64,000 bases of DNA from the NCBI GenBank assembly GCA_030681615.1, contig JAUXSA010000073.1, positions 1 through 64,000 of the forward strand, given 5' to 3'. Of the stretch, positions 11,982-58,261 are shown in pieces (position 1 is the first letter of the stretch; the number at the start of each line of letters is the position of its first letter). This DNA is from Bacteroidota bacterium (GTDB lineage: Bacteria > Bacteroidota > Bacteroidia > B-17B0 > Aurantibacillaceae). The translations under genes were made by a program, and so were the position numbers. The notes beneath the pieces are model-generated. The model searched no databases and was not told the DNA's origin. It saw only the letters and a program-made list of their open reading frames with translations.

Positions 11982-14276
11982 TTATTCAGGCAACGTTTTT
12001 AGCGCTTTTTCAGCAGCTTGATATCCGTGATCTAACCTCAATGTTTTTTCCCAACATTGTTTTGCTTTATCATAAGCTTTTAAATTATAATAAGCGCCTC
12101 CCAAACCATACCATGCATGAGGATCTTCAGGAACAACGATCGTACATAAATTATAAGCTACTGCAGATTCATGGATCTTACCAGCGTCAAAAGCTTCGGC
12201 TCCTCTGTTCTTTAATATAGCAGAGTAAACCCTGTAATAATTTTCCAGATAAGGATTGTTAGGATATAATCGCTCTGCCAGCTTCCAATAATATATGGCA
12301 TCTCTATCATTACCTAATTTAAAACTTGCTAATCCTAAATTTAAATAACCATTTACATAACGTGGATGCAACTCAACAGCGTGTTTTAAATACCCTATAC
12401 CTTTATTAAGCGCCGCCTCTCTTTTATCAGTATAACCACCTTGTTGCATTTCTTCGGTAGTGATCTTTAACATACCGTTATAATCATTAAATGTTGTCGG
12501 GTCTTCACCCGGCAAGGATATACCCGTGATCTCTTTAGTATCGGCCAGGTCTATCCAGCGCGCACCTGCATTACCTAAAACCAAAACAGAGTGGGGCGAA
12601 GTTTTTACATCTTGCAAAAATAAGGTCACATCATTTTTCCAATCCCAATTACGCTCCCAGGTTTTGCAACCACACAAAATTAAAATTATTAGTAACGAAC
12701 TCATCATTACTGTTCGTTTTGCAGTAAATGAAACAGATTGCAATTTTTCTAAACCTGTTAATGCCAACCAGGCAATAGCTATTGCTACACCTATAGAAGC
12801 GTGAAATAAAAAGCCCTCTCGCATAATGGCACCAACAGGAAAAATAAAATTGGTGACCAGAATTAAGAACGAAAAATAAGTTATAATAGCAAAACCTAAA
12901 ACGTGACGTTTAATGGCCAACCTAATTCCTAAAATTAAAAGGCCAAGATTTAATACTAAAGAAATGATGAAGCCAACATCTGTAAAACCGCTGTAGGGAA
13001 TTTGCGCATAAGAATAATCGCAGGTTAGTTTCGCCGGAAAAAAAGAAAGCACAAGATATTTTAACAATACAAAAACTTCTGAAGCAAATTTTTGTTCGCC
13101 GGTTGCTAATAAAAATGGATTATTTAAGAGTTCAGTATCAGGCAGGCCGGGTGATACATTAACAGAGGTTAAACGTAAGGTCATATATACCACTCCAAAG
13201 CCAAACAGGCCTAAACTTAGCATTCCTAAATTAGCCGCTTTTATTTTTTCTCTGTCAAAAATATAAAGCGCAAGTGGAACAAGACCTAAAAGCACAATGG
13301 CATATTCTTTAGACAACATAGCAAAGAAAAAAGAAAGGCCTGCAAATATGAGCGAACTGATTTTTTTAGAGTCGTTATATTTGAATGAGAACAAAAATGT
13401 AAGTGTAATAAATATCAGCGAAAAAATATCTTCGCGACCTTTTACATTAGCAACAATTTCGGTATGAACAGGGTGAATTAAAAATATAAGCGCAGCCAAA
13501 AAAGCCATGTCTTGCCTTTCTTTAAATATATATCTGCTAAACAACAAGTAAAGTAAAACGCAAGCCAAAATGTAGGTCCACATATTATTAAAGTGTCTTA
13601 AAAACGCGCCTTTTGTTTGACAATCAACTTCATTAAATACCCCATCCTGATTTAGGTCCTCAGACACATCGTTCTTAAAATTTTTATTTAGGTCCCAGCA
13701 GGTGTTGCACTCATTGAGTTGCGCCACATTATCTTTATTCAGGTCTATAAAATCATTGTATTCATAATTTGTTTCCAATAGTGCTGGATCAGTATTTCCA
13801 CCACCTGCCTTTTTTTTCCTTATCGATGCAGGAGACGCGTGTGAATCAGGTATTTCAATTTTATCGTTATCTAACTTACCATTCTTGTTTACATCTTCGG
13901 CAAACATGTAAAAGCCCGTTCTATACGTTCCTATTATTTCTTGCTCCAGCGCAAAACTTACAATAGCTAAAGGCCGGTACCTTCCACCCTGCAATTGGTC
14001 GGTAGCATTCATGCGCCTGTAAAAAGCGTCGTAAGCATCTTTAGTTAAAATATCTTTTATACCGGCAACACCTTTTAAAACATAATTATTTTGATGAATA
14101 ATAATTCCATCATCCAACGCATATTCGTTATATAAAGAGGTGCAATAAAAAATAATACCAACAAGCACTAAAACAAACAGTGGTTGTTTTTTATTGAAGA
14201 ATGGAAAATACTTAAATGTACTTTCTGGCTGATCAACAGGCAATTGTTCTTCGTTATTAATTTGTTCCGTTTCCAT
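11982..14276 (-). CDS. TMTC-like membrane glycosyltransferase with EF-hand-like loops and TPRs (paralog 1)
   Basis: This 764-residue polytopic protein resembles eukaryotic TMTC O-mannosyltransferases of the GT-C class. After the first membrane helix (about 32-50) comes an acidic pair Asp55-Asp56 in EYALDDGIIIHQN, then GRYRPLAIVSF (98-108) and HPVHTEIVANVKGREDIFSL, all TMTC-like. The first outer loop holds four EF-hand/dockerin-like Ca loops: DVNKNGKLDNDK (128-139), DLNKDNVAQLNE (178-189), DLNKNFKNDVSE (195-206) and DLNQDGVFNEVD (207-218), with Cys190, Cys193 and Cys219 close by. The C-terminus carries TPRs (about 625-764). The start overlaps the upstream gene by 20 nt, placing it in the ECF sigma operon. 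Glycosyltransferase activity is inferred. A paralog lies at 53287-55785. Confidence 0.8.
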   Translation of the reverse strand: METEQINNEEQLPVDQPESTFKYFPFFNKKQPLFVLVLVGIIFYCTSLYNEYALDDGIIIHQNNYVLKGVAGIKDILTKDAYDAFYRRMNATDQLQGGRYRPLAIVSFALEQEIIGTYRTGFYMFAEDVNKNGKLDNDKIEIPDSHASPASIRKKKAGGGNTDPALLETNYEYNDFIDLNKDNVAQLNECNTCWDLNKNFKNDVSEDLNQDGVFNEVDCQTKGAFLRHFNNMWTYILACVLLYLLFSRYIFKERQDMAFLAALIFLIHPVHTEIVANVKGREDIFSLIFITLTFLFSFKYNDSKKISSLIFAGLSFFFAMLSKEYAIVLLGLVPLALYIFDREKIKAANLGMLSLGLFGFGVVYMTLRLTSVNVSPGLPDTELLNNPFLLATGEQKFASEVFVLLKYLVLSFFPAKLTCDYSYAQIPYSGFTDVGFIISLVLNLGLLILGIRLAIKRHVLGFAIITYFSFLILVTNFIFPVGAIMREGFLFHASIGVAIAIAWLALTGLEKLQSVSFTAKRTVMMSSLLIILILCGCKTWERNWDWKNDVTLFLQDVKTSPHSVLVLGNAGARWIDLADTKEITGISLPGEDPTTFNDYNGMLKITTEEMQQGGYTDKREAALNKGIGYLKHAVELHPRYVNGYLNLGLASFKLGNDRDAIYYWKLAERLYPNNPYLENYYRVYSAILKNRGAEAFDAGKIHESAVAYNLCTIVVPEDPHAWYGLGGAYYNLKAYDKAKQCWEKTLRLDHGYQAAEKALKTLPE

Positions 14277-14643
14277 AAGTTTGTTTTTTGTTTAATCCAA
14301 ATGTGTAAATACTTGAAAGGACAGTAGAACTTTTTACAGACGCGATATTAGAAACGTACTCACTTACATGCGCTTCGTTCTTAGTACTTTTATCTTCTTT
14401 CGTAAAAAATAAAATAACACCACCAATAACTACAGTTGCAATTACCGCATGGTATAATTTTATTTTAAAATTAAGGAATGCCGCTACCAGCGAAAAGAAA
14501 TCTTCTATCTCTCCCCTATTTGCTTTTTTGCGGGCAAGGATCTTTTTTCTTGCTTCTGCAGAAAGTTCAGGCACTTTTAAATTCAGATCCTCAACCGACA
14601 TTTTATCGCTGAGAAAATCATCCAGTTCGTTCTTGTTTTCCAT
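14257..14643 (-). CDS. Probable membrane anti-sigma factor (128 aa)
   Basis: The protein has a charged cytoplasmic N-terminus (about 1-65), one membrane helix (about 66-83, AVIATVVIGGVILFF) and a short outer tail. That is the topology of ECF anti-sigma factors. It lies 5 nt after the ECF sigma gene and overlaps the TMTC-like gene by 20 nt. I see no zinc-binding HxxxCxxC motif, so it is not a ZAS-type factor. The role is inferred from position and topology. Confidence 0.65.
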   Translation of the reverse strand: MENKNELDDFLSDKMSVEDLNLKVPELSAEARKKILARKKANRGEIEDFFSLVAAFLNFKIKLYHAVIATVVIGGVILFFTKEDKSTKNEAHVSEYVSNIASVKSSTVLSSIYTFGLNKKQTYGNGTN

Positions 14644-14648
14644 GGTAA

Positions 14649-15239
14649 TTAATTTACAGGCTTAAATATTTTTAATTTTTCTTCGAGAACTTTTATTGTA
14701 TAATGTAATCTTGATTTTACGCTGCCTTCAGGGCAATTTTGGATCAGCGCAATTTCTGCTATCGTTTTTTCTTCCTGGTACTTTAAAATAAATGCTTCTT
14801 TTTTCTCTACCGAAAGTTCATTTAAAATTTCTTCCAGCATTTTTCTGAACATTGCTGCATCTATTTTACTTGCCGAGTTTAAAAAAGCCGCATCATTAAT
14901 ACTTTCGTTCATGTATCTGATTTCTTCTGCACTTTCTGAAACTATTTTCTTGTGCCGGTAATAATTTTTGCAACTATTAGAGGCTACTGAAAATATCCAT
15001 GTTTTAAAAGAACGGTTTTTGTCAAATTTTTGAGGCGCTTCTGCTATTTTTAAGAACAGGTCTTGCAAAGCATCTTCAGCAAGTTCCTTATCAAAATTCA
15101 ACATGCGTATAAAATAACCCAACAAACGTTTGCTGTACCGTTCATAGATCTCGTCAAAGGCCAATTCTTCACCGTTGCTCAAAAAGAACATTAATTCTTC
15201 ATCACTTAAGAGTGTGTACTTACCTGTTTGTTGTGGCAT
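14649..15239 (-). CDS. ECF-type RNA polymerase sigma factor
   Basis: This 196-residue sigma factor has region 2 (about 22-95, ERYSKRLLGYFIRML, DALQDLFLKI and RSFKTWIFSVASN) and region 4 (about 135-190, LSVEKKEAFILKYQEEKTIA and CPEGSVKSRLHYTIK). There is no region 3 or 1.1. Known ECF factors direct transcription of envelope-stress or uptake genes when released from a membrane anti-sigma factor. Here the operon order sigma, anti-sigma, TMTC-like protein suggests that the glycosyltransferase is part of the response. Self-regulation is likely but no clear promoter was found. Confidence 0.95.
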   Translation of the reverse strand: MPQQTGKYTLLSDEELMFFLSNGEELAFDEIYERYSKRLLGYFIRMLNFDKELAEDALQDLFLKIAEAPQKFDKNRSFKTWIFSVASNSCKNYYRHKKIVSESAEEIRYMNESINDAAFLNSASKIDAAMFRKMLEEILNELSVEKKEAFILKYQEEKTIAEIALIQNCPEGSVKSRLHYTIKVLEEKLKIFKPVN

Positions 15240-15432: not shown

Positions 15433-16983
15433 CTATTCTTTCAAAAATTTCTTTTTTAATATTGTATTACCCGTTTTTATATTCAGGAAGTAAATGCCGG
15501 AAGAAAGTTCATTAACATTAATTTCAGAAGCAGAATAATACTTGCCTATCAATTTTCCGTTCACATCTATAATTTCGATTACATCAGCAATTAGATCATT
15601 ACTCAATTTTATTTTTAATTTATCCTGAGCAGGGTTAGGTGTGATGGAGATCTCATTACTCATCAAACTATTATCTTTTACATTCATAACCAAACAGAAA
15701 TTGAGGTTAATAGAAAATGTAATGGGAGTCACAGACGTTGTAAAATTATTTAATGTGAAGGAAGTAATAGGTTGTATTGCTGGGCTCACCGATGATTGAG
15801 TAAATGTAGGGCCCGCGTTACCACTACTACCAGTTATAGTATTTGAGCAAGAAAATGTTAAAGCAGAACTAAATTTTTGAATTGTTAGAGGATTGTTTGG
15901 AAAAGAATAACCTGAAACATCAAAATAATAACTGCCATTATATATTGAATGTGGAGCGTGTGAAGGAACAGCATAAAAAGAAGGTCCAATATTATAATTG
16001 TAAAGCATGGCGGTTTGAAAATTATTTCCAACCCCATTAGAATCTAACTTTAAAAAAGCACTTGTATATAAAACGTTTGAATTGTAAGTACCCGTTGCGT
16101 AAAACAGATCACCATTATTACTTTCGTTCACATAAAATGCAATTTGAGCAGGATTCATATAGGTATTTGAGATTCCTTTAAACCATTTCGTGTTTCCGCT
16201 TATATCAAATTTAGCCAATTGATTAAATGGAATACCAGTTGGAATCGAATACCCCTGAAGACGTGCATAAAAACTATTGGCAAATTTTGATCTTGTAAAT
16301 CCCCAGCTAAAACTATTGTAATTGCCGGTTAAATGATTTTTAACACCCGTAAAAGCATTGGTAATATCTGAAAATGAATATATACCAATGCCAGAACCTC
16401 CTGAAAGGGCAATAGTTCCGCCACCAGCTAATTTATATATGCCCGCAGAGTCGCAAATTATTGATAACCCTTCCAGTTGAGTACTTCCCATAACAGAATT
16501 AAAAACTTTTAATTTAAGTTCGTTACCAAGGGTATCAGTCTTAAGAAGAAAATTGTCTCCAGAAAGTAAAAGATTATTATTTCTATCCAGTAATAAGCTT
16601 ACCAAATTAAGCGTATATGAAGTTGAAGTTGTTCCTGATAAAATGGCATTTACTGTTTGAGTAGTTTTAACCCAATTAACACTGCCATTTGAATTCAACT
16701 TTCCGAAACTACTTGATGAACCATTTTTAGCAATAAAATACATGCTTCCTGTTTTTGAAAGTAATAAATTAGAAAAATTTAAACCCGAATAGGTTTTTGC
16801 CCAAATAGTATTAAAGTTTTTATCCGTTTTTACAAGCCTATTACCATGAAACATATAAATATTCGTATCTGCATCAACAGGGAACTCATTATTGTTAGCA
16901 GTTGAGGCGTTTAGATATGGCAAAATTTGCGCATAAAATGAACATGATAACAGCATTAATATTAAAATAGATATTTTTTTCAT
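15433..16983 (-). CDS. Type IX secretion cargo protein with type A C-terminal sorting domain
   Basis: The 516-residue secreted protein begins with a signal peptide (ISILILMLLSCSFYA). The centre resembles a repeat-type beta fold (NFNTIWAKTYSG, LLLSGDNFLLKTDTLGNELK), as in delta-60/beta-propeller-like proteins. The last 80 residues form a type A sorting domain: SITPNPAQDKLKIKLS, IIDVNGKLIGKYY, ELSSGIYFLNIKTG and a basic end KKKFLKE. Known proteins of this kind cross the outer membrane through the SprA translocon and are anchored or released. The biological role is unknown. It is monocistronic. Confidence 0.88.
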   Translation of the reverse strand: MKKISILILMLLSCSFYAQILPYLNASTANNNEFPVDADTNIYMFHGNRLVKTDKNFNTIWAKTYSGLNFSNLLLSKTGSMYFIAKNGSSSSFGKLNSNGSVNWVKTTQTVNAILSGTTSTSYTLNLVSLLLDRNNNLLLSGDNFLLKTDTLGNELKLKVFNSVMGSTQLEGLSIICDSAGIYKLAGGGTIALSGGSGIGIYSFSDITNAFTGVKNHLTGNYNSFSWGFTRSKFANSFYARLQGYSIPTGIPFNQLAKFDISGNTKWFKGISNTYMNPAQIAFYVNESNNGDLFYATGTYNSNVLYTSAFLKLDSNGVGNNFQTAMLYNYNIGPSFYAVPSHAPHSIYNGSYYFDVSGYSFPNNPLTIQKFSSALTFSCSNTITGSSGNAGPTFTQSSVSPAIQPITSFTLNNFTTSVTPITFSINLNFCLVMNVKDNSLMSNEISITPNPAQDKLKIKLSNDLIADVIEIIDVNGKLIGKYYSASEINVNELSSGIYFLNIKTGNTILKKKFLKE

Positions 16984-49601: not shown

Positions 49602-52600
49602 TTATGCTTTTAAAAATTGAAGATAAAAAACGGTGCCTTTATTTATATCTGATTCAAACCAAACTTTGCCATCAAAACCTTGCATAATATTTTTTACCAT
49701 TGCCAAACCTAGTCCGGAGCCCGTATTTTTAGTGGTAAAATTAGGAGTAAACAGTTTTTGTTTCAGATCGCTATCAATACCACAACCATTATCTTTAATG
49801 GAAATAATGGCTGTATCACCATTATCTTTTAATTCAATTTCAATTTTTGGATCTGCAATTTCTTCTAAAGCCTGAACTGCATTTTTAAGGATATTATTAA
49901 ATACACGCAGTGCCTGATCCTTATCTCCCAATACTAAAATTTCTTTCTCCAAAATATGATCTACGATGGAAATATTTTTGTGGTTCTCAAAAGTAAGAAC
50001 AGAAGTTTTAATAATTTCGGAAAGATTTATTGACTGTAAATTTGTTTTAGGGAATTTGGCAAAACTGCTAAACTCATTGGCAATATTAGCTAAGGAGTCT
50101 ATCTGTTCTATAATTCCTGCACTTGCTTTTTCAAATTTTTCTTTAAAATCATCCGGATTATTTTTCATTAAATGCTGCAGGTATTGCAAATTTAATTTCA
50201 TTGGTGTAAGTGGATTTTTAATTTCGTGCGCTACCTGTTTAGCCATTTCGCGCCACGCACTTTCGCGCTCACTTTGCGCTAAAAGGCTTGCACTTTCTTC
50301 TAACTTTAAAAGCATTTGATTGTACTCGCTCACTAATTTCCCAATCTCGTCGTTACTTTGCCATTTAATTTTTTCGTTCTGTTTGCCTAAAGTAATATTG
50401 GCAATTTGTTGTTTAATTAATTGCAATGGACGTGTGATATAACCCGCAAGTATTAAACCCGAAAGAATACTTATTACAAATAAAATTACATACACGTTTA
50501 TGAACGCACTTATGATACCCGAAAGCTCATTTACAAGATCGGCCTGCCTGGCGTAATAAGGTAAATTTACAAAACCAATTAATTGTTTTTTGGTGTCAAA
50601 CAAGGGCGTATAAAGCGATGAATAATTTAACTCTCCGGCTTTTTCATCTACACTTGTTGCCGATGTGCGGTTATGTTTTAGGTCTGCATATGCTTGCGGA
50701 TTGGCCAATGATGCGGCTAAACCAAGCTCATATAAACGCGGCTCGCTGGTATTAAATAATTTTCCTTCTTTGCTAAATAAACTTATATCGGTGCTAAATA
50801 AATGCGCATATTCTTTTAGTTTTAAATTCACCAATTCTTTTTGCGATGGATCAAAAATTTCGGAAGGTGTAAATTGTGTAGCCAATTCATTAATGATAGT
50901 TTGTGTTTTTTCCTGCAATTGTTTTACATTATCGGCTTTAAACTGGTTAGATACCAATGTCGCCGAAGTAAAGCCCACTGCGGAAATAGCGAGCAATAAT
51001 AAAACAATAATAATAGCCTGGATACGTCTTGTAAAAGATGAGGATTTAAATCTTTCGGTAAAAAATAAACCGTAAATAAAATAGCTGCAAAAACTTATAA
51101 AGGAGAAGAAAAGAAATAAATAAGAGTTATAAGTAAAATAATAATCGCCATTTTTTGTTCGTTGACTGATGACAATCTCTGTTTCTTCATCAGGGTTAAA
51201 GAAATAATGAATGTAATCAGTATTTGTTTTTGAAAGCGCTAAAGAATCGCTGTTAAAGTAAGGATAATTAAAATCGCCATAGCGGCTGGCTATTTGCCCC
51301 GAGCGGTATACAGCGTGGCTGAACTTTTTTAATTTATCGGGTTTTTGCTGTGATTGATCCAGCAAAAGATCGGGAAAACTTCCTAACTCTTCAAACTGTT
51401 TTGGTTCTAAGCGCACATAAAGATTTTTTGTGCTAAACGAAATTTTTCCGATGTAACGCGAGTTCTTTTTATGTTTTGCTATAAAAAAGAAGTTTGGCGA
51501 AACAGAGTCTGTTTCTGAATATTTTATCTGGTCTTCAAAAAAACCTTCATTTAAAAGTATTGGATCTTTTGGTGTTATTAAAGGTTTACAATCCTTATCA
51601 AACATAGATAATTCGACATTGTAACGATTAAAATAACCACCAAAATATTTTTGCTTTAATAATTGTTCAACTTCCTTTTCGCTGTTTGGCAAAAACTCGA
51701 TAAGCACTTTTAATTTTTCGTCATTAACTATCTTTTCGGGAACACTTGTAAACTCACTTTCAAGAATAGCATCTTTACGTTCACTTAAATTAAAAGACAA
51801 ATGTTTAAGGTCTTGTTTTTGATTTTGACTAATATAAAAATTAAAGAATACCGATGTAATAACCGACATGATAAGTATCTGCAAACCCAACCCTAATGAG
51901 TTTTTTGAAAGGTTTGTCTTTGCCAGAATAAACAAGGGTAAAGCAAAAATAAGTAGCCAGTAATATTCAAAAAGATTAGAATAACTAAATCCAATTTGAA
52001 TTACAAGGCAAGTTGCAAAGGTCAAAGCCGTGAAAACAAACAGATCTTTAATAATCTTTCCTGTAAAAAAAGTAGTGAGTTTATGTATAAGCACAAAAAC
52101 AGTTAAACAATAGCTTGTAAGTGCAAACAAAGCAATAAATGCCGGGAATTTTATGCTGAAAATACTTAAGAAATCGAAGTTAAGCGTTGAGTTACTTACC
52201 AAACTAATGATGGCATTATTGAACTGAACAACAACAAAACCAATTGCAAAACACAAGAATAAAACGCTTGCATAATTTAAATTTTTTGCGTTTGTTTTTT
52301 GGATCTTATAATTAAGGGCAACACTAATAAATAATAAAATAATGGCGTTAAATAAGATATCGCCCAGATAAGCATTTATAAGCGAATCGGCATTACCAAA
52401 CAATTGCACATCATACAAAACACTTCTGTAAAAAAAAGCCGGCCACTTTAACCAGATCATCAAGGCCCTGATAATAAGAATAGCTGTAAGCCAAATAATG
52501 GCCTGCAAACTTTTTGGTTTTTCTTTTATTATCCATAAAATTGATAGTAAAAAAACAACAAAGCCTAATAAAAATATCACAAAGCAAACACTGCTTATTG

Positions 52601-53183
52601 CGCTTGAATAATAAAATTGTTCATCACCTGAAAGGTAAAATAAAGGCTGGTTGTTAAGTGTTACGACATTTTCGGGCAGGCCGGCAGTGGCTAGTTCCAA
52701 CTCTTTTGGTATTCCGGTCCACTCACTAAAATTATTCTTTAAATAATTATTCTGGAGGTCGTACCTGGGTTTTATCAAACAAATAGCGAGCCCTAAACGT
52801 TCTTGTTTTTGTGTTTTAAAATATAAATAATTGCCCTGTTTTAATGTGGCAATTCCATACTCTTTAGTAAATAATTGTTTATCATAAGAAAAAGGGATTT
52901 GCGCATTGTTCCAATACTCAAGACTGTCGTTCCTTAAATAATACAGACCAATATTTTCTTCTTTAAAAAGCTTTTCAAATTCAACATGGCGTTTGCTTAT
53001 ACTATCATTTAACAATAGATCAAGGGCCTTTTTTGATACTTCGTGCTTTGTGTTAATTTTTTTACTTGCGTTTTGTGCGATATGGGCACTGGAAAATGAA
53101 AAATGATTGTTTAGTAAAATTGCGCCCAGCATCAAAAGACCGCTGACCATCAATAGGATGTAGTAAATTTTGCTTTTTTGCAT
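49602..53183 (-). CDS. Large multi-pass sensor histidine kinase with HAMP domain
   Basis: With ATG at 53183 the kinase has 1193 residues. The frame extends to a TTG at 53195, but the ATG gives a good membrane start (MQKSKIYYILLMVSGLLMLG). The sensor part contains many membrane helices (about 13 in all, clustered in residues 180-450), then a soluble stretch, two more helices and a HAMP region (about 900-955). Phospho-acceptor His986 lies in VAHEIKNPLTPMKLN, followed by the ATPase domain with NILKNAVQALEE, DNGCGID and GSGLGLAMVKNIMQGF. No response regulator is adjacent. It is divergent from the second TMTC-like gene, with start codons about 100 nt apart. Confidence 0.9.
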   Translation of the reverse strand: MQKSKIYYILLMVSGLLMLGAILLNNHFSFSSAHIAQNASKKINTKHEVSKKALDLLLNDSISKRHVEFEKLFKEENIGLYYLRNDSLEYWNNAQIPFSYDKQLFTKEYGIATLKQGNYLYFKTQKQERLGLAICLIKPRYDLQNNYLKNNFSEWTGIPKELELATAGLPENVVTLNNQPLFYLSGDEQFYYSSAISSVCFVIFLLGFVVFLLSILWIIKEKPKSLQAIIWLTAILIIRALMIWLKWPAFFYRSVLYDVQLFGNADSLINAYLGDILFNAIILLFISVALNYKIQKTNAKNLNYASVLFLCFAIGFVVVQFNNAIISLVSNSTLNFDFLSIFSIKFPAFIALFALTSYCLTVFVLIHKLTTFFTGKIIKDLFVFTALTFATCLVIQIGFSYSNLFEYYWLLIFALPLFILAKTNLSKNSLGLGLQILIMSVITSVFFNFYISQNQKQDLKHLSFNLSERKDAILESEFTSVPEKIVNDEKLKVLIEFLPNSEKEVEQLLKQKYFGGYFNRYNVELSMFDKDCKPLITPKDPILLNEGFFEDQIKYSETDSVSPNFFFIAKHKKNSRYIGKISFSTKNLYVRLEPKQFEELGSFPDLLLDQSQQKPDKLKKFSHAVYRSGQIASRYGDFNYPYFNSDSLALSKTNTDYIHYFFNPDEETEIVISQRTKNGDYYFTYNSYLFLFFSFISFCSYFIYGLFFTERFKSSSFTRRIQAIIIVLLLLAISAVGFTSATLVSNQFKADNVKQLQEKTQTIINELATQFTPSEIFDPSQKELVNLKLKEYAHLFSTDISLFSKEGKLFNTSEPRLYELGLAASLANPQAYADLKHNRTSATSVDEKAGELNYSSLYTPLFDTKKQLIGFVNLPYYARQADLVNELSGIISAFINVYVILFVISILSGLILAGYITRPLQLIKQQIANITLGKQNEKIKWQSNDEIGKLVSEYNQMLLKLEESASLLAQSERESAWREMAKQVAHEIKNPLTPMKLNLQYLQHLMKNNPDDFKEKFEKASAGIIEQIDSLANIANEFSSFAKFPKTNLQSINLSEIIKTSVLTFENHKNISIVDHILEKEILVLGDKDQALRVFNNILKNAVQALEEIADPKIEIELKDNGDTAIISIKDNGCGIDSDLKQKLFTPNFTTKNTGSGLGLAMVKNIMQGFDGKVWFESDINKGTVFYLQFLKA

Positions 53184-53256
53184 TAACCATAGCAAAATAG
53201 TAAAAAATCCTGTACCCTTAAAGGATTTTATATTTTTTTTGCAATCAATTTGCGTT

Positions 53257-53286: not shown

Positions 53287-55785
53287 ATGGCACAACCAAC
53301 AAAGACGTTAAAACAACCGACTTTTCCTGAGTTATCTCAAACCTTTAAGTATTTTACTTTTTTAACCCATAAAATGGCCATGATCATTATTGGTGTGGTG
53401 GGTTTTACATTTTATATTACTTCAATAAATGGTGAGTATGCGTTAGATGATGGGATCATTATTCATCAAAACGATCACGTAATTAAAGGTGTTAGAGGTA
53501 TACAAGGTATTTTAACCAAAGATGCCTACGAAAGTTTTTATCGTAGAATGTGTGCTACCGATCAATTAGCCGGTGGTCGTTACCGTCCGCTTTCCGTAAT
53601 TAGTTTTGCTATTGAGCAAGAGTTTATGGGAGCCTATCGAACAGGTTTATATTTAAAAGTTGAGGACTCAAATAAGAACGGTGTATTAGATAAAGATCTT
53701 GTAAACTTTACGTCACCTTGCGGAAGACCAGAAACCAATTATGAGTATAACGATTTTGTGGATCTTAATGGTGATGGTATGGCTCAACAAAACGAGTGTT
53801 ACAATTGCTGGGATACCAACCAGAATTTTAAAAATGACTCGGATGAGGATCTAAATATTGACGGTGTGTTTAACGAGGTAGATTGCCAGGTATACAAAGC
53901 CAACGTTCGTCACTTCAATAACATTTGGACATTTGCTTTAGGTTGTGTTTTCCTTTACCTTGTTTTCTCTCGTTATTTTTTCCGTACCAATCAAGATCTT
54001 GCATTTTTAGCTGCGTTACTTTTTACAATGCACCCTATTCACTCCGAAGCAATTGCTAACGTAAAAAGTCGTGATGAGATCTTTTCTTTGATCTTTATTT
54101 CACTCACCTTCCTCTACTCCTTTAAGTACATGGAGACCAAGAAACCACTCGATCTTTTTTGGGCAGCATTCATGTTCTTACTCGCACTGCTTTCAAAAGA
54201 ATACGGTATCATGTTGTTGATACTTGTTCCACTGGCCGTTTACACATTTACCGAAAATGATTTTGATATTAAAACTTTCAGCAAAACAAAAGAATTTAAA
54301 CAAACCATTTTTATTGGTTTAACCTTTGTGGTTTGTGCATTTTTTATGCTCTATCTAAAACGTTCGTTTGACATGCATGCTCCTCCGGGTGCAAAACCAA
54401 TTAAATCATTCTGGGTGTTCCCTTTTATTTTTATTGGTGTTGGCATATTTATGCTAGGTGCAAATAAAAAGAACAACTTCCAGAAATTAATGGCCTGGTT
54501 CTATTTTGTGATGTTGTTCTATTTAGCAATGCGTTTAATGGCGGTAAAATTAAAGCCAGGTGTGCCAGATACTGAGATCTTAAATAATCCATACTTATTA
54601 GCAAATGGCGAGGAACGTTTCTGTACTAAAGCCTATGTATTATTTAAATATTTTATGCTGCAATGTTTCCCACATCCATTGTCTTCAGATTATTCATACA
54701 ATACAATTGAGTACCGTCATTTTACAAGCTGGGATTTTATTGCATCAATAATTCTTCATGTTGGAATTGTATGGACGGCCATTAAATACACCCTTAAAAA
54801 ACACATACTTGGTTTTGCCGCAATGACCTATATTGTATTTGCATTGTTAATTGGTAACGTGTTAATGGATATTGGTGCTACCATGGGTGAACGTTTGATC
54901 TTTCACTCAAACATTGGATTCTGTATTGCCGCTGCTTATTTAATATTAAAAGGCTTCGATAAAATTTCGGCTGTATCGGTAAACATAAGAAGGGTTGCAT
55001 TAATTGCTATTGTTTTAGTTGTTGGGTTCTTATTCGGCTGCAAAACATGGGAGCGTAATTATGACTGGAAGAATGACGTTACCTTATTCTTAAAAGACGT
55101 AAACACCATGCCTAACTCTGTGTTAGTTTTAGGAAATGCTGGTGCGCGTTGGGTTGATCTTGCAGATACAAAAGAAATTACCGGCATACAGGTTGTGGGT
55201 CAGGATTCTACACGTTATAACGATTACAACGGAACACTTCACATTAGTGATGAAGAAGTTAAACAAGGTGGTTACGCTTCTAAAAGAGATGCGGCTTTAT
55301 ACAAAGGTATTGGTTTCTTAAAACACGCTATTGAATTACATCCACGTTACGTGAATGGATATTTAAATTTAGGTTTGGCGTATTTTAAATTAAGGAAAGA
55401 TTTTGAAGCGCTTTACTATTGGAAAAATGCTGAGCGTTTATATCCTAACAATCCGTACTTAAGGAATTATTACATTGTTTATTATAACGATCTTAAGAAC
55501 CGTGGCGCTACAGCGTTTAATCGTGGAAGAATGGATTCTGCTGCTATTGCTTACAGAAAATGTACTATATTGGATCCTTACAATCCTGAAGGTTGGTATA
55601 ATTTAGGTGGTGCGTATTTTAACAGCCAAAGATATGTTAAGGCAAAAGAATGCTGGGATCGCGCTTTACAGTTAAATCCAAATTATCAGGAGGTTAAGAG
55701 AGTAATGCCGATGTTAACGCCTCAAATGTTAGGTCAGGCACCTGCCACAAGTGTAGTGCCGGCACAACCAATTAAAAATAATTAA
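53287..55785 (+). CDS. TMTC-like membrane glycosyltransferase with EF-hand-like loops and TPRs (paralog 2)
   Basis: Counted from ATG at 53287 the protein has 832 residues; an open frame extends to 53170, but that part reads as non-conserved and the -7 box lies inside it. It shares the layout of the protein at 11982-14276: Asp54-Asp55 in EYALDDGIIIHQN, GGRYRPLSVISF, HPIHSEAIANVKSRDEIFSL and C-terminal TPRs (about 690-810). The first loop holds DSNKNGVLDKDL (127-138), DLNGDGMAQQNE (159-170), DTNQNFKNDSDE (176-187) and DLNIDGVFNEVD (188-199), with Cys171, Cys174 and Cys200. It adds a C-terminal low-complexity tail. The cupin gene overlaps its stop by one base. Confidence 0.8.
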   Translation: MAQPTKTLKQPTFPELSQTFKYFTFLTHKMAMIIIGVVGFTFYITSINGEYALDDGIIIHQNDHVIKGVRGIQGILTKDAYESFYRRMCATDQLAGGRYRPLSVISFAIEQEFMGAYRTGLYLKVEDSNKNGVLDKDLVNFTSPCGRPETNYEYNDFVDLNGDGMAQQNECYNCWDTNQNFKNDSDEDLNIDGVFNEVDCQVYKANVRHFNNIWTFALGCVFLYLVFSRYFFRTNQDLAFLAALLFTMHPIHSEAIANVKSRDEIFSLIFISLTFLYSFKYMETKKPLDLFWAAFMFLLALLSKEYGIMLLILVPLAVYTFTENDFDIKTFSKTKEFKQTIFIGLTFVVCAFFMLYLKRSFDMHAPPGAKPIKSFWVFPFIFIGVGIFMLGANKKNNFQKLMAWFYFVMLFYLAMRLMAVKLKPGVPDTEILNNPYLLANGEERFCTKAYVLFKYFMLQCFPHPLSSDYSYNTIEYRHFTSWDFIASIILHVGIVWTAIKYTLKKHILGFAAMTYIVFALLIGNVLMDIGATMGERLIFHSNIGFCIAAAYLILKGFDKISAVSVNIRRVALIAIVLVVGFLFGCKTWERNYDWKNDVTLFLKDVNTMPNSVLVLGNAGARWVDLADTKEITGIQVVGQDSTRYNDYNGTLHISDEEVKQGGYASKRDAALYKGIGFLKHAIELHPRYVNGYLNLGLAYFKLRKDFEALYYWKNAERLYPNNPYLRNYYIVYYNDLKNRGATAFNRGRMDSAAIAYRKCTILDPYNPEGWYNLGGAYFNSQRYVKAKECWDRALQLNPNYQEVKRVMPMLTPQMLGQAPATSVVPAQPIKNN

Positions 55786-56186
55786 TGCGCTTTTGGTTTT
55801 TAATATTTTTAATAGCGTTAATACTTTCTGTCAGGTCGCAAACCGTTGTTAATGTAGATACATTAAAAGCACCGGCCAAAACAGATAACATTTATAATAA
55901 AGCATTATTTAATGATAGTTTGGTCAGCAGTTTTTGTATTGTAATTAAGAACGAAGTTAAACTTCATAAACATCAGTATCACAGCGAGCATGTTTATGTA
56001 ATTGAAGGCGAAGGACAAATGAAGTTAGGAAACCAGGAATTTAAAATTAAAAAGAACGATTTTATATTCATTCCAAAAAATACTGTTCATTCGGTTAAAA
56101 CAATAAGTAAAGAACCATTAAAAGTAATAAGTATGCAAGCGCCTTTTTTTGACGGCAAAGACAGAATTATTTTAGAAGAAAAATGA
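55785..56186 (+). CDS. Exported cupin-domain protein
   Basis: The 133-residue protein starts with a signal peptide (FLIFLIALILSVRSQ) and contains one cupin: HKHQYHSEHVYVIEGEGQMK, split over the motif 1 His/Glu residues, and IPKNTVHSVKTIS with the motif 2 His. A metal site is likely. The start shares one base with the TMTC stop (TAATG) and the stop overlaps the next gene by 4 nt (ATGA), so translation is coupled. The enzyme activity is unknown. Confidence 0.82.
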   Translation: MRFWFLIFLIALILSVRSQTVVNVDTLKAPAKTDNIYNKALFNDSLVSSFCIVIKNEVKLHKHQYHSEHVYVIEGEGQMKLGNQEFKIKKNDFIFIPKNTVHSVKTISKEPLKVISMQAPFFDGKDRIILEEK

Positions 56187-58261
56187 AAAAGATCTTAATA
56201 TTTACAGCTTTTATAGTTTCCGCATCACAATTATTTTCGCAGGTACTTTTTAGCAACAGTTTCGGGAATTTAAGTTTACAAACTTATACTACGGCATCCA
56301 GTTCTGTTCAATACACTACTGCCCCTTCTCTATTTAGTGTCATTAATGATGGTTTTAAAAATAATATTGGTTCGGCAACCAATCCAAATAAACCATTTGA
56401 TGTGCCGGCACTTAAAACCGAGGGATGGGCTGTCGTATACAATACAATTGAGAACGATACATTCTTAGTTAGCACCAGTTGGTTGGATACTTTAGTTACG
56501 GTAGATAGGTGGATAATAACTCCATCTATCACAAATATAACCGCCAACACAGTAATTACCTGGTTGGCCAAAAGCCCTGACGCCAATTACCCGGAAAGCT
56601 ATTTGTTATATGGTACCAATAAAACAGGAACACTCGTGCCACAGGATTTTACAATTGGCGATCAATTATTTACCACTAGCGCAGAGAATAGTACCTGGAC
56701 AAGAAGATCGGTAAGTCTTGGGGCTTTTGCAGGCCAAACTTTACGCTTTGCATTCAGAAATAATTCAAATAATAAATATCAATTATGGATTGATGATATT
56801 GAAGTTATTACCCTGGCAAATAATTTAGATGCTGCTGTTAAATCTATTGAAACAAAGAAGTATACACTTACCAATTCATCTGATACAGTTAAAGTTAACG
56901 TATCAAACTTAGGTTCAACAACAATAAACACTATTACATTAAATTATACTTTCGGCAACTCTTCTGTTAATACACAGGTATTCTCTTTTGCAAACGGATT
57001 AGCTTATAAACAAAATAATTTGTCTTTTTTTCCGCAACTTAACGGCGCCTCTACAGCCGGTAATTATAAATTAAAAGTATGGTTAAGCGCTAATTCTTTA
57101 AATACGAGTTTACAAGATCAAAATCAATTAAACGATACTGTTTTCACATATGTTACCGTGCAAAGTTCTGCTCCCAAAAAATCAGTTTTAGTAGAACAAT
57201 TCGTAAGTGCTTTTGATGGTGAATGTACAGACGCTATACAAAAAATATTAGCGCTTCAAAATGATTCAGTAATTGTTGTTAATGTTCACGATCTTGATTC
57301 ATTAAAAGAACCAAATTCAACAGGAATTATTTCAGCTTACAAAAAAAATACAGCTACTGCCATGTTCGATAGAAATTATTTCTCTGCCCCTGGAAGTGTT
57401 GCTGTTACCCGCCCCTATTATAATAATATGCTCGCAAAACAACTGCGCACAATTTCACCTGCAAGTGTAAGCATCATTAATAAAACTTATAATTCCCTTA
57501 CCAAACAATTATCCTTTACTGTAAAAGCCGATTTTATTGGAGATGTAAAAGGCGATCTCCGCCTGAATGCTTACCTTATAGAGAACCAGGTTCATGGCCC
57601 CTGGGGAGATACAACTGTAAATGGTTATAATCAATTGAACAATTATTATAATGTGCCATGGTCTCCATTTTATCAAATGGGATATTATTCATTCACCTAT
57701 TCCACAAATGTTTTAAACGGAGTTCAATTCCCTCACCAAAACACTTTGGTTCACTCTTTTGATGGATCATTTGGCAATGCAGGGTTAATTCCAACAACTG
57801 GTGGCACACAAAATCAATCGTACCAACAAACCTATACTTTAACTGTTCCTACACCAACAAACAACATCAATAAATTTAACTCCGATAATCTATATATTGT
57901 TGGCTTTTTAGCAGAATATAGTACCGACCAAAACAACCGCAATGTTTTAAATGTTGTAAAAGAAAAAATTACCGCAAATAATGAAACCTTGAACCTAAAA
58001 GAAAACATTTCAAAGGTTGATCTATCTGTTTATCCTAATCCTTCAAATGGGGTTATGTATATAACCAGCTCAAAAAACATCAATACCTATCAAATTAAAG
58101 TGATAGACCTTATGGGCAGATGTGTGCTTATTGAGAGTCTGGTACAGGTTGGAAATACCAGTATGGTGAATCTTTCGACACTCAATAATGGTATTTATTT
58201 CCTTCAAATCAGCTCTGAAAGCGGCAGTTTTGTTGAGAAAATTGTGATCCAAAAAAACTAA
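56183..58261 (+). CDS. Omp28-related type IX cargo protein with choice-of-anchor-like domain
   Basis: The 692-residue secreted protein has a signal peptide (ILIFTAFIVSASQLFSQ), a choice-of-anchor-J-like jelly roll (about 20-210, with LWIDDIEVITLAN), a beta domain (about 215-335), an Omp28-like region (about 337-600, KKSVLVEQFVSAFDGECTDA) and a type A sorting domain (about 615-692, DLSVYPNPSNGVMYIT and NNGIYFLQISSESG). It should be exported by the SprA system. The target is unknown. Its overlap with the cupin gene places it at the end of the TMTC2 operon. Confidence 0.85.
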   Translation: MKKILIFTAFIVSASQLFSQVLFSNSFGNLSLQTYTTASSSVQYTTAPSLFSVINDGFKNNIGSATNPNKPFDVPALKTEGWAVVYNTIENDTFLVSTSWLDTLVTVDRWIITPSITNITANTVITWLAKSPDANYPESYLLYGTNKTGTLVPQDFTIGDQLFTTSAENSTWTRRSVSLGAFAGQTLRFAFRNNSNNKYQLWIDDIEVITLANNLDAAVKSIETKKYTLTNSSDTVKVNVSNLGSTTINTITLNYTFGNSSVNTQVFSFANGLAYKQNNLSFFPQLNGASTAGNYKLKVWLSANSLNTSLQDQNQLNDTVFTYVTVQSSAPKKSVLVEQFVSAFDGECTDAIQKILALQNDSVIVVNVHDLDSLKEPNSTGIISAYKKNTATAMFDRNYFSAPGSVAVTRPYYNNMLAKQLRTISPASVSIINKTYNSLTKQLSFTVKADFIGDVKGDLRLNAYLIENQVHGPWGDTTVNGYNQLNNYYNVPWSPFYQMGYYSFTYSTNVLNGVQFPHQNTLVHSFDGSFGNAGLIPTTGGTQNQSYQQTYTLTVPTPTNNINKFNSDNLYIVGFLAEYSTDQNNRNVLNVVKEKITANNETLNLKENISKVDLSVYPNPSNGVMYITSSKNINTYQIKVIDLMGRCVLIESLVQVGNTSMVNLSTLNNGIYFLQISSESGSFVEKIVIQKN

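Follow-up and report, generated by a model that had tools for sequence, protein, structure and literature searches.

Eukaryotic TMTC1-4 are O-mannosyltransferases of the GT-C/PMT clan with C-terminal TPRs, for which seven sequence motifs (M1-M7) have been described (PMC7801869). Further GT-C enzymes are the oligosaccharyltransferase catalytic subunits STT3, AglB and PglB, which have a C-terminal domain of their own, and bacterial ArnT and fungal Pmt of the PMT_2 clan. Loops of the Dx[DN]xDG type, with the Asp/Asn ligand spacing of EF-hand, dockerin and thrombospondin type 3 loops, are not confined to EF-hands but bind Ca in many other settings, and 16 structural contexts are known (PMC3123361). 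A general O-glycosylation system has been described as phylum-wide in Bacteroidota, yet its oligosaccharyltransferase and ligase were still undiscovered in 2025 (PMC12871550).

The window, the whole 64,000-nucleotide stretch of a Bacteroidota contig analysed here, encodes two TMTC-like GT-C enzymes that share a recurring putative Ca-loop module, one of them in a sigma factor operon, and these represent a genuine variant that is conserved and has not been catalogued so far. Gene A (11982..14276, reverse strand) encodes a membrane protein of 764 amino acids with an insert in outer loop 1 and C-terminal TPRs, and gene B (53287..55785, forward strand, from an ATG at 53287) encodes a paralogue of 832 amino acids; both open reading frames lie where the sequence-only reading had placed them, and the proteins share 50% identity across 820 alignment columns. 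PMT_2 (PF13231) exceeds its Pfam cut-off of 26.1 bits in A (31.1) and B (28.6), as do TPR_1/TPR_2 in both. The structure models (mean pLDDT 86.3 and pTM 0.86 for A; 85.2 and 0.84 for B) each show a multi-helix membrane domain followed by a TPR tail. The GT-C membrane domain of A covers residues 20-580 (12537..14219, reverse strand), and the TPR regions cover residues 618-760 of A (11997..12425, reverse strand) and 666-809 of B (55282..55713, forward strand), so that the C-terminal TPRs read from the sequence are borne out by Pfam and the models alike.

A sequence-profile search of the GT-C region found no PDB relatives at E 10, and Foldseek by itself ranked TPR proteins top; it was the second aligner, VIA-align, that gave the GT-C match. 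With it, the two models matched yeast STT3/OST (Z 20.0 and 20.2), PglB (17.5 and 16.9) and Pmt1-Pmt2 (17.8 and 18.3), and model A matched ArnT (16.9), over spans of 320-360 residues. Such Z values are higher than those usual for unrelated helical models. As modelled, A and B have the GT-C fold. The closest folds are those of STT3/AglB/PglB (Z about 16-20), although identity to them is 8-14% and A and B have a TPR tail in place of the oligosaccharyltransferase C-terminal domain. ArnT and Pmt share the fold and the PMT_2 assignment, but A and B differ from them in the Ca-loop insert and the TPR tail, and no MIR domain is among their Pfam matches.

The Asp pair of motif M1 (D55-D56 in A, 14109..14114, reverse strand; D54-D55 in B, 53446..53451, forward strand) is placed by the A and B sequences straight after TM1, as in GT-C enzymes, and is at least 90% conserved in 58 homologues. 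The motifs of A read ALDD, GRYRPLA, HPVHTE, GRED and SKEY; its M2-like Y-R-P (residues 100-102; 13971..13979, reverse strand) lies just ahead of a juxtamembrane helix (102-115). DD, YRP, R-x-D/E, K-E and D-Y are comparable with M1-M5 of TMTC1-4 (PMC7801869): DD is retained, M3 is R-E-D in A and R-D-E in B, and M5 is D-Y where TMTC has D-W; the Asp pair, YRP, R-x-D/E, SKE and D-Y are conserved in the family. The TMTC-type motifs first noticed thus stand for the Asp pair after helix 1 and HPVHTE, whereas R-P-L-S, also attributed to A, is the version of B, and A has RPLA. Unlike TMTC1-4, A and B carry the putative Ca-loop insert and lack the SHKS part of M2, the T/Q-xx-T part of M4 and the P-x-x-P of M6 (TM9), and TMTC_DUF1736 (PF08409) stays under its Pfam gathering cut-off of 27 bits (A 12.9, B 18.0). 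Since two defining features of TMTC, the DUF1736 match and P-x-x-P, are missing, the family is TMTC-like and not a TMTC member.

The paralogues differ at M7, before TM10, which is E-R-x-x-Y in TMTC. B has E-R-L-I-F, with E535-R536 (54889..54894, forward strand) providing the predicted lipid-phosphate Arg, and A has E-G-F-L-F, with the Arg lost at E487-G488 (12813..12818, reverse strand). Throughout the A clade (L036-L041, L045, L013/L172, L047/L170, L166-L169, L171), E-G, E-S, E-H or E-T replaces E-R, and A and B are therefore not equivalent paralogues. In TMTC models this Arg is part of the phosphate-binding motifs (PMC7801869), so that A may have become impaired or otherwise altered, whereas B looks complete.

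The insert of A occupies residues 117-223 (13608..13928, reverse strand), between helix 102-115 and TM2 (224-250), as delimited by alignment with insert-less orthologues and by the model. It contains extra loop 1 (D128-K139, DVNKNGKLDNDK; 13860..13895), extra loop 2 (D178-E189, DLNKDNVAQLNE; 13710..13745) and a module between two Cys (C193-C219, CWDLNKNFKNDVSEDLNQDGVFNEVDC; 13620..13700), all on the reverse strand, which we term the CWD module and which holds two back-to-back putative DxN Ca loops. The corresponding features of B, on the forward strand, are extra loop 1 (DSNKNGVLDKDL; 53665..53700), extra loop 2 (DLNGDGMAQQNE; 53761..53796) and the CWD module (C174-C200; 53806..53886). The four EF-like loops per protein that had been reported in the first outer loop are confirmed: D-x-N-x-[DN] loops begin at residues 128, 178, 195 and 207 of A and at 127, 159, 176 and 188 of B, and composition-preserving shuffles give 0.3 such loops by chance. 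The spacing said to be preserved is the same in A and B from loop 2 to loop 3 (17 residues) and from loop 3 to loop 4 (12 residues) but differs between loops 1 and 2 (50 vs 32). Similarly, three of the four insert Cys positions are common to both, but one is found in B only (A: 190, 193 and 219, an odd number; B: 145, 171, 174 and 200). No loop of A or B fits a strict PROSITE-type EF-hand pattern in our own rendering, and the profiles Dockerin_1 (E 0.55 and 2.6) and EF-hand_5 (E 7) remain well under cut-off, so membership of the EF-hand or dockerin families is rejected. The loops had been read as one arrangement; instead, they comprise a 27-residue core module and two loops of later origin, extra loops 1 and 2 occurring in the long form of the insert only.

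The core module reads C-W-D-x-N-x-N-x3-D-x2-E-D-x-N-x-D-G-x5-D-C, with the consensus CWD.NkN.knD.eEDlN.DGvFNEVDC in 50 distinct TMTC-type sequences and CWDlNGNGinDp.EDiN.DG.wdalDC in 22 distinct sequences from other proteins; the layout common to both kinds of host is C-W-D-x-N-x-[ND]-x3-D-x2-E-D-x-N-x-[DN]-x6-D-C. The DNA search pattern stopped at D-G, and the terminal D-C, which it did not include, is nonetheless present in the copies found. Of 295 genomes of the class, 23 contain the pattern, as do five viral contigs. Most of the 22 non-TMTC sequences belong to collagen-like Gly-X-Y proteins; the rest come from a single DUF6340 protein and from small proteins of no known family, and the copies in viral contigs are in collagen-like or other small proteins. 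In the collagen-like proteins the module interrupts and separates Gly-X-Y stretches, whereas in A and B it occupies the outer loop of an enzyme. No Pfam model covers the module, phage records gave no match, plasmids gave two weak Azospirillum matches only (E 0.7-0.9), and its PDB sequence relatives are limited to weak dockerin-type and protease matches (E at least 0.25). An open-access literature search, as weak evidence, found no report of the module or of a TMTC-type enzyme with EF-like loops. The module, as yet uncatalogued, is shared by extracytoplasmic proteins of Bacteroidota that are otherwise unrelated.

In the structure models, the two 12-residue loops of the module lie back to back between the two Cys with hardly any helix around them, unlike in an EF-hand. 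Binding of Ca by the module is plausible by analogy, since so many structural contexts are on record for Dx[DN]xDG loops. Its first loop may have weak affinity, as most TMTC-type copies have F, K or N instead of Gly at position 6.

The distribution of the insert suggests how it arose. It is absent from genes of families f21 and f7 (L086, L087), present in family f6 and part of family f1 in a short form, which is about 27 residues long and has two Cys, and present as the long form in the genus of the window. Insert-less genes, too, adjoin a histidine kinase gene related to the HisKA/HATPase gene that is the divergent neighbour of B (49602..53195, reverse strand), and this synteny shows that they are true orthologues. 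On a tree calculated after removal of the insert from the sequences, the states none, short and long require three changes, compared with 27.5 for shuffled labels, and from this distribution we conclude that loops 1 and 2 were added to an older module. Absence of the loops from close homologues, which was to count against the sequence-only reading, is found for loops 1 and 2 in the sister genus, but every member of the family f1 sample retains the two-loop module. L076/L077 may represent a second, separate enlargement.

Selection on the insert, which had been deduced from the resemblance of A and B, is evident within each set of orthologues. The pN/pS of the module is 0.09 among A orthologues and 0.105 among B orthologues, compared with 0.17 and 0.16 for the respective GT-C cores and 0.62 for the A linker. 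The module therefore evolves more slowly than the catalytic core in both paralogues.

The explanation that we favour, and to which we give an even chance of being right overall, is that A and B belong to the TMTC-like GT-C enzymes and carry a structural Ca/disulfide module, B being a transferase and A a diverged paralogue. Both would be inner-membrane glycosyltransferases, with the active site and the TPR tail facing the periplasm. The two DxN loops of the module probably bind one Ca2+ each, and the flanking Cys, paired here by sequence order, are probably disulfide-bonded; together, Ca and disulfide would stiffen the module into a rigid knuckle situated after the juxtamembrane helices and before TM2. 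This knuckle would most likely cap or dock the catalytic cavity on its acceptor side, and rigidify or extend the acceptor side of outer loop 1; it would stay Ca-loaded in the periplasm; two further loops would have enlarged it in the genus of the window. B probably takes a sugar from a polyprenyl-phosphate donor and attaches it to exported proteins that its TPRs hold, whereas A, with its lipid-phosphate Arg gone, would have altered or reduced activity in envelope control, under sigma factor control. The O-glycosyltransferase activity that had been proposed for both proteins is putative.

The control of A is suggested by its operon, in which an ECF sigma factor gene (14649..15239; Sigma70_r2 51.0 and Sigma70_r4_2 45.3 bits, both above cut-off) is followed by a gene for a protein of 128 amino acids with one TM segment by hydropathy (14257..14643), and then by A, all on the reverse strand. 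The small protein has no Pfam match, and its gene overlaps the start of A by 20 bases. This trio recurs in A orthologues and in the sister-genus loci L072, L074, L079 and L081 (the sequence of L080 ends before the sigma gene), as well as with B-derived duplicates in G001, G030 and G011 (L163-L165). The small protein occurs in 16 of 40 genomes of the genus, nearly always beside a TMTC-like gene, and by its position and topology it is a putative anti-sigma factor whose tail would be periplasmic. In that C-terminal tail, past residue 81, an S/T-rich motif SSTVL(S/A)S is conserved (e.g. SSTVLSS) and occurs twice in the sister genus; it is a candidate acceptor or signal.

The same operon, found at every A-clade locus whose upstream side is covered, also fits an alternative in which A is a pseudoenzyme and controls the small membrane protein and the ECF sigma factor through its GT-C and TPR body, which would act as receptor or scaffold. 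Loss of the M7 Arg in all A-clade genes seen is in line with this, as is the additional loss of SKE and R-x-D in L013/L172. However, A and most of its clade retain the Asp pair, YRP, SKE and R-E-D, the GT-C core of A is under purifying selection, and the Arg persists in the sigma-linked genes both in the sister genus and in G001/G030/G011. We regard this alternative as unlikely.

The sequence-only reading had described A and B as Ca-sensing, which would imply that the transferase, or in A the sigma pathway, is active or inactive depending on whether Ca occupies the loops in the periplasm. The four loops, the strong conservation of the module and the operon that A shares with a sigma factor and a small membrane protein are compatible with a sensor. 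Against it, the same module sits in collagen-like stalks as a passive-looking interruption, the sister-genus genes keep the sigma operon with the short form only, B has the same loops with no sigma gene adjacent, and the generally high Ca level outside the cytoplasm favours structural use (PMC3123361). Sensing thus appears rather unlikely. Since the module is found in collagen-like proteins and is absent from syntenic orthologues, a structural or docking role fits better than a sensor needed for catalysis, and the module is most likely a structural or docking knuckle. A more specific proposal, that A, having lost the Arg and carrying Ca-loop knuckles, is an envelope sensor that controls the sigma factor and perhaps binds or glycosylates the SSTVL(S/A)S tail of the small protein, seems to us quite improbable.

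The best structural matches of the family are oligosaccharyltransferase catalytic subunits, and the family might be proposed as the missing oligosaccharyltransferase or ligase of the general O-glycosylation system of Bacteroidota. This proposal is weakened by the absence of a match at E 1e-20 from 9 of 23 genomes of other families of the class, a distribution that looks too patchy for a phylum-wide system, and the annotated neighbours of A or B include no glycan-locus genes; we consider it very improbable. That the module recognises its counterpart in collagen-like surface proteins, pairing enzyme and substrate through the common 27-residue layout, is extremely improbable and was rejected, as the genome of the window has no CWD module besides those of A and B.

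These findings have wider implications. They define a small Cys-bracketed putative Ca-loop module whose hosts in Bacteroidota include a GT-C enzyme, collagen-like proteins and a DUF6340 protein, and the gain and enlargement of this module can be followed inside the outer loop of a glycosyltransferase. The tie between a TMTC-like enzyme and an ECF sigma operon provides a concrete handle on protein glycosylation in Bacteroidota.

Several further observations concern the surroundings of these genes and the other hosts of the module. A cupin-domain protein is encoded directly downstream of B (55785..56186, forward strand) and is often conserved there. Genes for proteins with type IX secretion C-terminal sorting domains adjoin the A operon (15433-16983, reverse strand) and the B and cupin genes (56183-58261, forward strand). 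The sigma-linked TMTC-like gene is followed, some 0.6-0.8 kb downstream, by another ECF sigma gene in L163 (582-1202), L165 (1358-1984) and L167 (186-809); this second sigma gene is divergent (24-27% identical). Gly-X-Y collagen-like proteins with one to several CWD modules are encoded at L099, L106, L112-L117, L119-L121, L124-L128, L129 and L133; in the DUF6340 protein (L118) the module is inserted within the span of the family profile, and the small proteins of unknown family in L131 and L132 are from IMG/VR viral contigs. In the genome of the window, two extra loose-pattern matches lie in what are, judging by sequence, FG-GAP-like repeats, and a third, distant TMTC-like gene (L092, C199) has no insert.
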